DNA from: Actinospica robiniae DSM 44927
GTDB taxonomy: Bacteria; Actinomycetota; Actinomycetes; Streptomycetales; Catenulisporaceae
DNA length: 64,000 bases
Direction: 5' to 3'
Assembly: GCF_000504285.1 (NCBI RefSeq)
Contig: NZ_KI632511.1
Span: forward strand, 2,663,372-2,727,371
The notes under the pieces were generated by a model. The model saw nothing but the letters and a program-made list of their open reading frames with translations. It did not search any database and was not told the origin of the DNA. Positions 25,833 to 31,981 of the stretch are shown piece by piece; position 1 is the first letter of the stretch, and every line of letters begins with the position of its first letter. Both the position numbers and the translations under genes were made by a program.

Positions 25833-25972
25833 TACGGGATTCCACCCGCCCCGGCACACCTCCGTGCGCCCTGGCCGGAGATTTTCGGTAATCCTGGGGC
25901 GCACGCGCCGGTCTCCTGTGCACCAGCGGGGCGAGAGCCCGAAGACCGCGCCCCACGACCGGAAGAGGAACC

Positions 25973-27883
25973 ATGTCGATGTCAGTCCGGCAGGAAGACC
26001 CCGCGCCCGAACTCGTCTCGGCCGCGCGCGCCGGCGACCCGCGCGCGCTCGACGCCCTGGTCTCGGCGTCGCTTCCGCTGGTCTACAACCTGGTGGGCCG
26101 GGCGCTGCGCGGCCACGCGGACGTGGACGACGTCGTGCAGGAGACGATGCTGCGGGTGGTGCGCCGGATCGGGGACCTGGAGCGGCCGGAGTCCTACCGG
26201 TCCTGGCTGGTGGCGATCGCGTTGCGCCAGGCCCGGGACCAGGGCGCACGGCAGCGGGTGGCCACGGCGCGCACGACGCGTTCCGAGCCGGGGCGCGAGC
26301 ACGCCGACCGGGACTCGGACTTCGCCTCCGTCACGGTGCTGCGACTCGGGCTGACCGAGCAGCGGCGCGACGTGGCCGAGGCGACGCGCTGGCTGGACCC
26401 GGAGGACCGCGAGCTGCTCTCGCTGTGGTGGCTGGAGGAGAGCGGGCACCTCGCCCGGCCCGAGCTCGCCCACGCGCTGGGCCTGTCCGCGCCGCACGCG
26501 GCGGTGCGGGTGCACCGGATGAAGCAGCAGCTTGATACCGCGCGCTCGGTGGTCCGCGCGCTGCGGGACGTCGGCCGCTGCGAAGCGCTCGGCGAGCTGG
26601 CGGCTGGCTGGGACGGCACACCGAATCCCTTGTGGCGCAAGCGTTTCGCCCGGCACGTGCGCGACTGCGCGGTGTGCTCGGCACGGGACCGCGCGCTGGT
26701 GCCCGTGGCGAGCCTGCTGCGCGGGCTTCCGCTGGTGCCGCTGCCGCCGACGCTGCTGGCGGCCGCTGCTCACGGCAGTGCGAGCGGCCACGTCGCGCAG
26801 CCCGCGCGCACCGGCCACGGCGGGCGGCGGGCCAGGCCGCGGCGCTCGGGCCCGAAGTCGCTCGCGTCGAGCCATCCGGCGCTGATCACGAGCGTCGCCG
26901 TGGTCGCCGTGGCGGTGGCCGCGTACGCGGTGATCCCCAACGCCCACCCGGCGACGACGCCGACGGCGGGCACGCAGCAGGCCTCGGGGATCGGGCTCTC
27001 CTCGCCCAGCCCGTCCGCCGAGCCGACGGACACGGTGACGGCGAGCGCGAGCCCTGCTGCCTCGGCGTCGCCGTCCGCCAGTCCGAGCAAAGCGGCGCGC
27101 ACCTCCGCGGCGGCCGTGGTCGTTCCGGCGACGAGCGCGCAGACGAGTTCACGCAAGGGCGTCGGCGTCTGGACCTTCACCGGCCAGAACCAGGCCCTGG
27201 CCGAGTCCGGCGCCTCCTGGTTCTACACGTGGTCAACCAGCGCTCAGGGCATATCCGCCCCGCACGCCGGCTTCGTGCCGATGATCTGGGGCAGCAGCAG
27301 CGTCACCGCCGGCGCGCTCGCCCAGGCGAAGCAGACCACGAGTTGCGGCTGCGTCCTCGGCTTCAACGAGCCGGACAACGGCGGCCAGTCGAACATGACG
27401 CCGGCTCAGGCGCTCGCGCTCTGGCCGCAACTGCAGTCGACCGGGCTGGAACTCGGCTCCCCCGCGGTCGCGGCGGGCGGCGCCGACTCCGGCGGGTGGC
27501 TGGACCAGTTCATGTCCGGCGCCCGGCAGGACGGCTACCGTGTCGACTTCATCACGCTGCACTGGTACGGCTCCGACTTCGACCCGAGCGCCGCGACCGG
27601 ACAGCTGCAGTCGTACATCGAAGCGGTCTACGCCAAGTACCACCTGCCGATCTGGCTCACCGAGTTCGCGCTGATCAGCTTCTCCGGCGGCGAGCAGTAT
27701 CCGAGCGAGTCGGTGCAGGCGGCGTTCCTGACCCAGGCCACGGCGATGCTCGACAAGCTCTCCTACGTCAAGCGCTACGCCTGGTTCGGCCTGCCCGCGA
27801 CCAGCGCGCTGCCGAACACCGGGCTGTTCCAAGCCGGGCCGGTGATCACTCCGGTCGGCGCGGCGTTCGAGGCGGCGCAGTGA
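25973..27883 (+). CDS. ECF sigma factor fused to zinc anti-sigma motif, TM helix and GH128-type glucanase domain
   Basis: This 636-residue protein runs from cytoplasm to outside. Residues 15-90 form sigma region 2 (ADVDDVVQETMLRVVRRIGD), and residues 130-195 region 4 (LARPELAHALGLSAPHAAVR). Residues 228-235 give a ZAS-like zinc motif, H-x3-C-x2-C (RHVRDCAVC). One transmembrane helix spans about 303-322, followed by a Ser/Pro/Thr/Ala linker to 393. Residues 394-636 match the GH128/Glyco_hydro_cc barrel, with likely catalytic Glu466 in GFNEPD and Glu564 in WLTEFAL. It resembles membrane-tethered ECF53-type sigma factors, in which release by proteolysis is thought to activate the sigma. A beta-glucan signal is inferred. 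No separate anti-sigma gene is adjacent. Confidence 0.88.
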   Translation: MSMSVRQEDPAPELVSAARAGDPRALDALVSASLPLVYNLVGRALRGHADVDDVVQETMLRVVRRIGDLERPESYRSWLVAIALRQARDQGARQRVATARTTRSEPGREHADRDSDFASVTVLRLGLTEQRRDVAEATRWLDPEDRELLSLWWLEESGHLARPELAHALGLSAPHAAVRVHRMKQQLDTARSVVRALRDVGRCEALGELAAGWDGTPNPLWRKRFARHVRDCAVCSARDRALVPVASLLRGLPLVPLPPTLLAAAAHGSASGHVAQPARTGHGGRRARPRRSGPKSLASSHPALITSVAVVAVAVAAYAVIPNAHPATTPTAGTQQASGIGLSSPSPSAEPTDTVTASASPAASASPSASPSKAARTSAAAVVVPATSAQTSSRKGVGVWTFTGQNQALAESGASWFYTWSTSAQGISAPHAGFVPMIWGSSSVTAGALAQAKQTTSCGCVLGFNEPDNGGQSNMTPAQALALWPQLQSTGLELGSPAVAAGGADSGGWLDQFMSGARQDGYRVDFITLHWYGSDFDPSAATGQLQSYIEAVYAKYHLPIWLTEFALISFSGGEQYPSESVQAAFLTQATAMLDKLSYVKRYAWFGLPATSALPNTGLFQAGPVITPVGAAFEAAQ

Positions 27884-28618: not shown

Positions 28619-28711
28619 GGACGCAGGCTATCCCAGATTCCTGCGATCTATTGACACCGTATCACAATAATGTAATGTATACGAGATGTGCCGGGTCACA
28701 TCCGGATCTCG

Positions 28712-29545
28712 CTACGGCTTGCGCGGCGAGAACTCCCTGAGCTCGTCGTCACCGTCGCGCACCACCGCGTAACACGACTCGGGCATCTCGACCCAGGCGC
28801 CGGGCAGGTCGCCGATCGGCTCGGAGACCACGAGGCGCGCGTCGTCGGACGCCTCCTGCAGGATCTCCCGGCCCGGAAACAGCTTCCGCAGTTCCGGCAC
28901 GGTGCGGTTGAAGAACAGCGACCGCGACTGGCCGGCGCTGGAGTAGCGGAACGCCCACAGCGTCTCGCCGTCGCTGGTCGCGATCGTGCCCTGGAACGGG
29001 TTCTCCACGCCGCGGGCCCGGCCGAGCTGCTCCACCAGTCCGATCGCGCGGGCCACCGCGCCGGGCGGGTCCTGTTCGAGCCCGAAGGTGAGCGCGGTGT
29101 AGAAGAGCAGCTCGGAGTCGGTGGTGCCGGCGATCTCGGGGAAGAGCGACTCGTCGATCGCCAGCACCAGGTCGCGCTTGACCAGGTGGAAGCCGTCGAT
29201 GAAGCCGTTGTGCATCCACAGCCGCCGGTCGTGCCGGAACGGGTGGCAGTTGGACTGCTGCACCGACGAGCCGATCGCGGCGCGCAGGTGCGCGAAGAAG
29301 AGCCGGGAGGTGACGTGGCCGCTGACCTCGCGCAGGTTCTGGTCGTTCCAGGCCGGCTCGGTGCTGCGGAAGACGCCCGGGACCGGACCGGCGTCGTCGT
29401 ACCAGCCGATGCCGAAGCCGTCGCCGTTGGTCGGCTCGGCGCCCATCTTCGCGTGCAGGCTCTGGTCGATCATCGAGTGCATCGGCGTGTACAGCACGTG
29501 CGAGAGCAGCATGGGAGAGCCCGAATACGCGAGCCAGCGACACAT
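28712..29545 (-). CDS. Class II glutamine amidotransferase (YafJ-like)
   Basis: The 277-residue N-terminal-nucleophile amidotransferase begins MCRWLAYSGSP; Cys2 becomes the catalytic N-terminus after Met removal. Conserved features include NGDGFGIGWYDD, FFAHLRAAIGSSVQQSNCHP and WMHNGFIDGF. It hydrolyses glutamine for an unknown acceptor; no synthetase partner domain is fused. The same minus-strand frame stays open far upstream through hypF, but ATG 29545 is the family start. It is divergent from hypF with 102 bp between starts. Confidence 0.88.
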   Translation of the reverse strand: MCRWLAYSGSPMLLSHVLYTPMHSMIDQSLHAKMGAEPTNGDGFGIGWYDDAGPVPGVFRSTEPAWNDQNLREVSGHVTSRLFFAHLRAAIGSSVQQSNCHPFRHDRRLWMHNGFIDGFHLVKRDLVLAIDESLFPEIAGTTDSELLFYTALTFGLEQDPPGAVARAIGLVEQLGRARGVENPFQGTIATSDGETLWAFRYSSAGQSRSLFFNRTVPELRKLFPGREILQEASDDARLVVSEPIGDLPGAWVEMPESCYAVVRDGDDELREFSPRKP

Positions 29546-29647
29546 GCCGCCACTGTGCCCAAGCCCCGGCCGCCGCGCACGCCGACACGCCGGGCCGCCG
29601 GTGCGCCGCCGCCCGGCCCGGCGGGCGCGCGCTGGCAGAATCGCGCC

Positions 29648-31981
29648 ATGACGGCGGAGCAGCGGGAACGGCGCGTGGTCAGGGTCGAGGGCGTGGTGCA
29701 GGGGGTCGGCTTCCGGCCGTTCGTCTACGCGCTCGCCGGGCGGCTGGGGCTGGACGGGCTGGTGGGCAACGACGTCGACGGGGTCTTCATCGAGGTCGAG
29801 GGGCCCGAGCCGCGGCTGGCGCAGTTCCTCAGCGGGCTGAGGCTCGAGGCCCCGGCGCTCGCCAGCGTCGAGCGCGTGCAATGGGCGCCCGCGCCGACGA
29901 CCGGCACGCCCGGCTTCAGCATCGTGGCCAGCGCCGCGCGCGGAACGCGGCCCGCGCCCATCCCGGCGGACACCGCGACCTGTGCGGACTGCCTGCGCGA
30001 GGTCGAGGACCCGGCCGATCGCCGGTTCCGGTATCCGTTCACGAACTGCACCGACTGCGGGCCGCGCTTCACCATCGTCCAAGGCGTGCCCTACGACCGG
30101 CCGCTGACGACGATGGCCGGGTTCCCGATGTGTGAAGCCTGCGCGGCCGAGTACCACGATCCTGCGGATCGGCGCTTTCACGCCCAGCCGACCTGCTGTC
30201 CCGCCTGCGGTCCACGGCTGCGCTTCGAGCGCGACGGCGCCGGGGACATGGGCGAGCCGATCGCCGCGGCCGCCCGGCTGCTGCGCGACGGCGGCGTGCT
30301 CGCGGTCAAAGGGCTCGGCGGCTACCACCTCGCTGTACTCGCCGCGGACGAGGAGGCGACTGCGCAGCTCCGACGCCGCAAGCGCCGCGAGGAGAAGCCG
30401 TTCGCGCTCATGGTCGCGGATCTCGCGCAGGCTCGGACCTTGTGCCGCGTCGATGAGGTCGGCGCGGAGTGTCTGAGCTGCCGTCAGCGTCCTGCGGTGC
30501 TGCTCGATCGCCTGCCCGAGGCGCGGGTGGCGTCGGCAGTGGCTCCGGGCAATCGGCACCTCGCGCTGATGCTGCCGTACACTGCGCTGCACCACCTGCT
30601 GCTGCGCGAAGTCGGCGAGGCGCTCGTCCTCACGAGTGGAAACGTCTCCGATGAGCCGATCGCGCACCTCGACGGGGACGCGGCCAAGCGGCTGGCCGGC
30701 ATCGCCGACGCGTTCCTTGTGCACGATCGGCCGATCCAGACCCGCACCGACGACTCCGTCGTCAGGCCCCTGTTCGGCCGCCCGATGATGGTCCGCCGGT
30801 CACGCGGCTACGTCCCGGATACGGTGACCCTGCCGGTGGCGGCCGATCGCCCGATCCTGGCGTGCGGGGGCGAGTTGAAGAACACGTTCTGCCTAGCCCG
30901 GGACCGGCGCGCCGTCGTCTCGCACCACATCGGCGATCTGGAGAACCACGAGACGCTCCGCTCCTACCACCAGGGCATCGCTCATCTGCGTCGCCTGCTC
31001 GACCTCGACCCCGCCGTGATCGCCCACGACCTGCACCCGGAGTATCTGTCCACGAAGTACGCGCTCGAACTCGCCGAGGGCGACGAGCGGCTGACCCGGG
31101 TCGAGGTGCAGCACCATCACGCGCACATCGCCTCCTGCCTCGCGGACAACGGCGAGTGCGGCCCGGTGATCGGCGTCGCCTTCGACGGGCTCGGATACGG
31201 CACCGACGGCACGCTGTGGGGCGGCGAGTTTCTGCTCGCGGACCTGCGCTCGGCGCGGCGCGCGGCCCACCTCGAGCCGGTGCCGATGCCGGGAGGCACC
31301 TCGGCGATCCGGCAGCCGTGGCGGATGGCCGCCGCGTACCTCGACGCCGCGTTCGGTGACGAGGGGGCGCCGGTCGAACTCGCGGTACTGCGCCGCAACG
31401 AGGCCCGGTGGACGCAGGTCGTCGTGTTGGCGCGGGCCGGGTTGAACGCGCCGCTGACGTCGAGTGCCGGCCGCCTGTTCGACGCGGTCGGCGCGCTCCT
31501 CGGGCTGCGCGACGAGATCAGTTTCGAAGGCCAGGCCGCGATCGCGCTCGAACAGATCGCCGACCTCGATGAGCGGGGCGCCTACCTGTTACCGGTGGCC
31601 GAGCCCGCCGGAGCGGAGGAACCGCTGAGACTGCGCGGCGCGGAACTCGTGCGCGCGGCGGCGGTGGACGTGCTGGCCGGGGTCGATCCCGGCGTCATCG
31701 CAGCCCGCTTCCACCACGGCGTCGCGGACGCGATCGCACGGGTCTGCGAGCGGCTGAGCGAGGAGAACGGCGTGCGGACCGTCGCGCTGTCGGGCGGCGT
31801 GTTCCAGAACGTGCTGCTGACCACCGGCGTCGTGCGGCGGCTCGAAGGCGCCGGCCTGCGGGTGCTGACGCACCGGCAGGTGCCCGCGAACGACGGCGGG
31901 ATCAGCCTGGGCCAGGCGGCCGTCGCGGCAGCGCAGGCCCGAGGGCTGATCCCGCGGGAGGGGCACCTCACATGCCTCTGA
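29648..31981 (+). CDS. hypF: Hydrogenase maturation carbamoyltransferase HypF
   Basis: The 777-residue protein has the full HypF order: acylphosphatase-like domain (VQGVGFRPFVYALAGRLGLD), two zinc fingers (CADC, CTDCGPRF, CEAC, CCPACGPR) at about 110-195, a YrdC-like domain (about 205-385), and a Kae1/carbamoyltransferase domain with VEVQHHHAHIASCLADNG and SGGVFQNVLL. It makes the thiocarboxamide that becomes the cyanide ligands on HypE. It is separate from the main hyp operon and converges on it, overlapping the 34-residue gene by 14 nt. Confidence 0.96.
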   Translation: MTAEQRERRVVRVEGVVQGVGFRPFVYALAGRLGLDGLVGNDVDGVFIEVEGPEPRLAQFLSGLRLEAPALASVERVQWAPAPTTGTPGFSIVASAARGTRPAPIPADTATCADCLREVEDPADRRFRYPFTNCTDCGPRFTIVQGVPYDRPLTTMAGFPMCEACAAEYHDPADRRFHAQPTCCPACGPRLRFERDGAGDMGEPIAAAARLLRDGGVLAVKGLGGYHLAVLAADEEATAQLRRRKRREEKPFALMVADLAQARTLCRVDEVGAECLSCRQRPAVLLDRLPEARVASAVAPGNRHLALMLPYTALHHLLLREVGEALVLTSGNVSDEPIAHLDGDAAKRLAGIADAFLVHDRPIQTRTDDSVVRPLFGRPMMVRRSRGYVPDTVTLPVAADRPILACGGELKNTFCLARDRRAVVSHHIGDLENHETLRSYHQGIAHLRRLLDLDPAVIAHDLHPEYLSTKYALELAEGDERLTRVEVQHHHAHIASCLADNGECGPVIGVAFDGLGYGTDGTLWGGEFLLADLRSARRAAHLEPVPMPGGTSAIRQPWRMAAAYLDAAFGDEGAPVELAVLRRNEARWTQVVVLARAGLNAPLTSSAGRLFDAVGALLGLRDEISFEGQAAIALEQIADLDERGAYLLPVAEPAGAEEPLRLRGAELVRAAAVDVLAGVDPGVIAARFHHGVADAIARVCERLSEENGVRTVALSGGVFQNVLLTTGVVRRLEGAGLRVLTHRQVPANDGGISLGQAAVAAAQARGLIPREGHLTCL

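Follow-up and report, generated by a model that had tools for sequence, protein, structure and literature searches.

We identified in Actinospica robiniae DSM 44927 a gene for a single protein of 636 residues, in which an ECF sigma factor is joined through an anti-sigma zinc motif and one predicted transmembrane helix to a predicted GH128 subgroup I barrel. The fusion genes of this type share a promoter-like element, and in the A. robiniae genome the only two thaumatin-family genes that were found, located 2.2 Mb away, both carry this element. We consider it likely, although no expression, binding or enzyme data are at hand, that the protein is an autoinhibited, membrane-tethered sigma factor that senses beta-1,3-glucan and induces secreted glucan-active, probably antifungal, proteins.

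Domain architecture of the fusion protein

The gene is located at positions 25973-27883 (+) of the window, that is, the stretch of 64,000 nucleotides that was analyzed (contig NZ_KI632511.1, positions 2,663,372 to 2,727,371, assembly GCF_000504285.1), in a genome of 9.92 Mb in one contig. Sigma region 2 (residues 29-94, positions 26057-26254) was identified with Pfam (PF04542, Sigma70_r2, E 1.3e-11), and the NCBIfam sigma70-ECF model covers residues 25-188 (E 1.8e-17). No Pfam model for region 4 or for a zinc finger gave a hit, except for a sub-threshold AsnC-type HTH at residues 142-184, and the assignment of a region 4-like HTH to residues 129-195 (positions 26357-26557) thus rests on the NCBIfam model and on structure. 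The H228-x3-C232-x2-C235 motif is preceded by C203, which gives C-x24-H-x3-C-x2-C (residues 203-235, positions 26579-26677), a spacing that appears to be that of the ZAS domain. All four residues are invariant in the 41 proteins that were aligned, out of 81 with the sigma-ZAS-TM chassis.

A single hydrophobic 19-mer at residues 303-321 (positions 26879-26935), with a mean Kyte-Doolittle value of 2.52, is predicted to be the transmembrane helix, and more K/R residues were found on the sigma side of the helix in 27 of 30 fusions, with 2 ties and 1 reversed. The helix is followed by a Ser/Thr/Pro/Ala-rich linker, predicted to be extracytoplasmic (residues 322-393, positions 26936-27151), and by the GH128 barrel (residues 394-636, positions 27152-27880), which was recognized by Pfam as Glyco_hydro_cc (PF11790, residues 405-632, E 1.5e-51). 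As far as computation goes, these results support the initial annotation of a one-protein signaling device, with two corrections, while the signal that it had inferred, beta-1,3-glucan from fungal walls, gains indirect support from the promoter and thaumatin evidence described below. The initial annotation had regarded the intact catalytic pair as unusual, but such a pair is the rule among the related fusions, and glycosyl hydrolase domains had already been predicted for some ECF52/ECF53 proteins (PMC10766802).

The GH128 domain

We modeled the full protein with AlphaFold2 (whole-chain pTM 0.44), with pLDDT values of 84-98 for most blocks of the barrel, 70-77 for two blocks, and below 50 for the linkers, up to residue 390. 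The best structural match to the barrel is AmGH128_I from Amycolatopsis mediterranei (6uaq), a GH128 subgroup I endo-beta-1,3-glucanase (structure paper cited through PMC10956234), with Z 37.9, an rmsd of 1.2 A over 239 aligned residues and 57% identity, as compared to Z 26.5 or less for the listed other subgroups. AmGH128_I was solved as a lone glucanase domain (its native gene context was not seen), while the barrel described here is the outer domain of a predicted membrane-tethered sigma factor. E466 (positions 27368-27370) aligns with the residue changed in 6uat (E102A), and E564 (positions 27662-27664) with the residue changed in 6uas and 6ufl (E199A, E199Q).

Both Glu residues are kept in 46 of 46 related fusion loci. 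Since our first set of GH128 fusions had been selected partly by the catalytic motifs, which is circular, we repeated the selection by similarity to the GH domain alone and recovered the same 46 loci; in one of these, L107, the motif reads LNEPD with Glu kept. In the 30 fusions that were aligned, N465, P467, D468, Q472, W509, H530, W531, G533 and Y602 do not vary either, whereas position 439 is Trp in 35 and Arg in 11 of 46, and position 532 is Tyr in 38 and Phe in 8, and some members may thus differ. In a simple pairwise comparison with the closest sister, dN/dS was estimated to 0.32 for the GH domain and 0.31 for sigma region 2, while the two linkers drift (0.89, and 1.08 for residues 323-390).

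It is possible, but in our view less likely than not, that the GH128 domain works as a lectin, with the catalytic residues kept for ligand binding and with no role for hydrolysis in signaling. There is a precedent in the GH10 domain of RsgI6 in Clostridium thermocellum, which binds its polysaccharides with very low activity (PMC4711584), so a kept active site need not mean that catalysis matters, and GH128 subgroup VII structures are titled as oligosaccharide-binding proteins in the PDB. However, the nearest fold is the subgroup I endo-glucanase rather than subgroup VII, and the invariance of the catalytic pair and of H530, W531, Q472, W509 and Y602, as well as the similar dN/dS values of the GH domain and sigma region 2, speak against a binding-only role.

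The sigma-ZAS part

The model of residues 1-262 (mean pLDDT 78.3, pTM 0.60) matches sigma-E region 2 structures and aligns across both sigma domains with SigW bound to RsiW (residues 8-194; 158 of 158 residues, 4.5 A, Z 11.1) and with CnrH bound to CnrY (residues 9-195; 149 residues, 3.7 A, Z 10.8). RNA-polymerase-bound SigH structures that span both domains do so only with an rmsd of about 26 A. On the other hand, the anti-sigma-bound structures SigE-RseA, AlgU-MucA and SigE-ChrR align mainly with one domain, and SigK with its anti-sigma domain aligns at 10.5 A, so the closed arrangement is not a general match. The result fits an autoinhibited arrangement of the SigW-RsiW kind, with moderate confidence.

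Distribution of the GH128 fusions

Among the best 80 of 346 related loci in a scan of named genomes, the same architecture recurred in 46, including Micromonospora, Actinoplanes-type genera, Streptomyces, Actinacidiphila, Sinosporangium, Asanoa, Rugosimonospora, Cellulomonas and Sanguibacter. No relative was found in viral contigs. A genus mate of A. robiniae carries the same locus as L067, titled Actinospica acidithermotolerans. A protein of G007, one of the 14 genomes of the family, is identical to L143, titled Catenulispora rubra, over the last 400 residues of the latter, which places its genus in the family searches in Catenulispora. All 14 genomes of the family have a match to the sigma-ZAS-TM chassis, and 7 of them have the GH128 domain. 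The chassis also bears other ectodomains: of ten that were scanned, five had a Pfam hit (CAP twice, AbfB, ricin-type lectin and GH99-like) and five had none.

In two of the 46 loci (L111, L113) the sigma and GH halves are in different frames, but a chance gene fusion or an assembly artifact is contradicted by the recurrence of the fusion across these genera. Also, the distances of the GH domain follow those of the sigma-ZAS part at r = 0.92 over 435 pairs of 30 sequences, which indicates, from distance correlation rather than a gene tree, that the two ends have traveled together.

A shared promoter-like element

The element GT[TA][AG]TC-N16/17-GTC[TC]C was identified in the 350-bp upstream stretches of 40 of 47 fusion genes (the 46 loci plus the window), as compared to a mean of 0.3 and a maximum of 3 in 200 resamplings of a Markov-1 control. 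Spacers of 13-19 were allowed in this search, but the 40 elements found had spacers of 16 (33 cases) or 17 (7 cases). The pattern was chosen after seeing the data: a first blind dyad search on 25 upstream regions was no stronger than its reverse-complement control, and the element emerged when GTAATC-N-GTCT was inspected by position and then tested with wider anchors. The more independent tests are the searches of the A. robiniae genome, of the thaumatin family and of the other genomes described below. In the window, the element GTAATC-N17-GTCTC at 25888-25915 (+), a predicted autoregulatory -35/-10, is the only match (expected 0.01) and is located 57 bp before the ATG.

Of the seven fusion genes that lack the strict element, L067 has a thaumatin gene between the element and the sigma gene, and a relaxed form recovers four more (44 of 47), leaving L067, L073 and L107. 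The sister's sigma gene and the Catenulispora genes do not match the strict element directly, but Catenulispora-type genes show GTTATG-N17-GTCTC in the upstream stretches that were read. A GGTCAC variant was found before divergent thaumatins in 8 of 9 Streptomyces loci. The relaxed pattern and both variants are post hoc. One stray match in L052, at 360 (+), is not upstream of its sigma gene.

The element was also found upstream of 20 of 34 loci of other chassis genes, although five of these (L099, L112, L114, L125, L145) are cut off at contig ends and some may be GH128 fusions. Related sigma factors may thus share promoters, and it could be argued that the element and the thaumatin genes are controlled by another chassis sigma factor or regulator, with the fusion protein as only one more target. 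We consider this unlikely, since the paralogs in the A. robiniae genome (L002, L003, L004 and L006) do not carry the element, and since the presence of thaumatin genes in the family follows the GH128 domain rather than the chassis.

Thaumatin and GH16 genes as predicted targets

In the A. robiniae genome, GTAATC-N15-18-GTCT has 9 matches, as compared to 1 for the reversed control. Two of these form a divergent pair at 459830 (-) and 459888 (+), facing two genes that are the only PF00314 (thaumatin) genes found in the genome (E 1.6e-60 and 3.4e-60; 0 of 14 control genomes). A loose pattern has 30 sites, as compared to 8 for the reversed control, and thus also hits chance sites; at 30 sites per genome, the chance that both thaumatin upstream regions of 300 bp hold one by accident is about 2e-7 in a simple uniform estimate. 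Seven other matches to GTWATC patterns (L150, L151, L155, L224-L227) look like chance, being within long spanning frames or before genes with no tie to the model; the GTAGTC and GTTGTC sites were not read one by one.

Across the 14 family genomes, PF00314 genes occur in exactly the 7 with the GH128 domain, two genes each, and in none of the other 7 (1 in 3432 if the genomes were independent, which they are not). In six of these seven genomes the thaumatin genes lie next to the GH128 domain, although the fusion gene of G007 seems split over contig ends, and only in A. robiniae are they far away. In the named-genome scan, thaumatin genes were found within the 4-kb flanks of the fusion gene in 10 of 49 loci (the 46 loci plus L099, L112 and L114) and in 0 of 31 loci of chassis genes with other or undetermined ectodomains; the remaining 39 fusion loci have no thaumatin gene within the flanks. 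In A. acidithermotolerans, one thaumatin gene precedes the fusion gene on the same strand and runs directly into it, the second is divergent, and both carry the element.

In eight further genomes, which we chose from the 46 fusion loci and which include L067 with its two thaumatins, the element has 28 sites, as compared to 5 control sites. Five precede the fusion gene itself, 4 precede thaumatin genes, 2 precede genes in two Actinoplanes-type genomes for GH16 plus ricin-type lectin proteins whose nearest PDB relatives are beta-1,3-glucanases, 2 precede other chassis sigma genes in Streptomyces (L195, L196), 2 precede alginate-lyase-like genes (L210 by a Pfam scan, L216 by eye) and 1 precedes a DUF1996 gene, while 12 sites precede no gene that we could tie to the model. 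At the S. hyaluromycini site (L202) the longest downstream frame was not the thaumatin, which is known from the flank and family searches. Four of the eight genomes have no thaumatin gene, and the single thaumatin of another of them, G056, is a weaker match without a strict site near it.

Proposed function and relation to known systems

The sensor domain and the main predicted targets are inferred to act on one polymer. GH128 subgroup I and the relatives of the GH16 proteins act on beta-1,3-glucan, and thaumatin-like proteins are reported to have beta-1,3-glucanase and antifungal activity (PMC13106811). We infer that the sigma factor is held inactive in the cytoplasm by its own ZAS-like domain, while the helix and a wall-spanning linker present the GH128 domain outside. 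Contact with, and probably cleavage of, beta-1,3-glucan, most likely from fungal walls, would trigger release of the sigma part, probably by regulated proteolysis near the membrane. Free sigma would then recognize GTWATC-N16/17-GTCTC promoters, namely its own, for positive feedback, and those of two secreted thaumatin-like proteins that bind or cut beta-1,3-glucan. More tentatively, it could be turnover rather than mere binding that frees the sigma domain, in a dedicated fungus-detection circuit of soil actinobacteria that induces thaumatin-like proteins or GH16 glucanases and converges on the PR-5 (thaumatin-like) response of plants. If true, such a circuit is a possible source of inducible antifungals and of glucan-responsive promoters.

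A beta-1,3-glucanase fold does not tell the source of the glucan, and the ligand could instead be plant callose, a bacterial curdlan-type glucan or the cell's own envelope; SCO4117, a fused ECF52 protein, acts in development (PMC5826349). This seems doubtful, since the PDB relatives of the predicted thaumatin-family targets include zeamatin and osmotin. Also, Streptomyces has secreted proteins that, by eye, look like thaumatin joined to GH128.

The protein resembles the fused ECF52/ECF53 sigma factors of Actinobacteria, in which the sigma domain, a ZAS-like zinc domain, transmembrane helices and an extracytoplasmic carbohydrate-related domain are in one chain and release by proteolysis has been proposed (PMC8999054, PMC5826349). 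Those with predicted glycosyl hydrolase domains have been published without experimental validation (PMC10766802). A GH128 ectodomain with a kept catalytic pair, the promoter element and a thaumatin/GH16 regulon were not found in the literature examined, which did not cover subscription papers, and the results presented here add an inferred ligand class, a promoter-like sequence and specific predicted target genes. In IutY of Pseudomonas putida (ECF243), sigma and anti-sigma are likewise fused in one chain and released by regulated proteolysis (PMC8999054), but IutY responds to the siderophore aerobactin and probably has no enzyme ectodomain. The SigI/RsgI system of C. thermocellum, especially SigI6/RsgI6, follows the same logic, with an extracellular GH or CBM sensor, a transmembrane helix, cytoplasmic sigma control, autoregulation and a regulon of enzymes acting on the sensed polysaccharide (PMC4711584). 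However, SigI/RsgI consists of two proteins, belongs to another sigma family and targets plant biomass, and the single fused ECF-type gene of A. robiniae is inferred to work alike but is not a member of that system.

Ectodomain variation on the sigma-ZAS-TM chassis

The same sigma-ZAS-TM chassis carries swapped ectodomains in the paralogous loci of the window's genome (L002, L003, L004 and L006) and in the related loci L023, L030, L032, L046, L117 and L118. These ectodomains include CAP, AbfB, ricin-type lectin and GH99-like domains, as identified by Pfam, a propeller-like domain recognized by eye, and an unnamed domain with a FHVASGG...MDD core, while five of ten ectodomains scanned have no Pfam hit. 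Short sigma-ZAS proteins without a clear TM helix are encoded beside full-length fused paralogues at two loci (L046:959-1915, + strand; L051:1457-2365, + strand). At another locus (L052:1933-4311, - strand), a gene for a secreted GH54-AbfB arabinofuranosidase is followed at once, in the same frame after a stop, by a sigma-ZAS protein without TM helix, which is possibly a split form of the fusion.

Within the GH128 domain, position 439 is Arg instead of Trp in 11 of 46 loci, of which nine are from Micromonospora (L068, L070, L071, L072, L097, L098, L106, L113, L115) and two from Actinoplanes (L081, L092), and this may alter glucan binding there. Also, four Streptomyces loci (L062, L063, L064, L065) encode secreted proteins that, as judged by eye, look like a thaumatin domain joined to GH128 in one chain. 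In those genomes, the search with the GH domain gave only this one match.

Other genes preceded by the promoter-like element, and a tRNA gene in the window

The same promoter-like element precedes a gene for a DUF1996 secreted protein in Paractinoplanes (L198) and for an alginate-lyase-like protein in two Streptomyces (L210, L216). In the window itself, tRNA-Ser (CGA) at 29809-29896 lies inside a long open frame (28688-31981) that continues into a gene named hypF-like by eye, and the true start of that gene is probably downstream.
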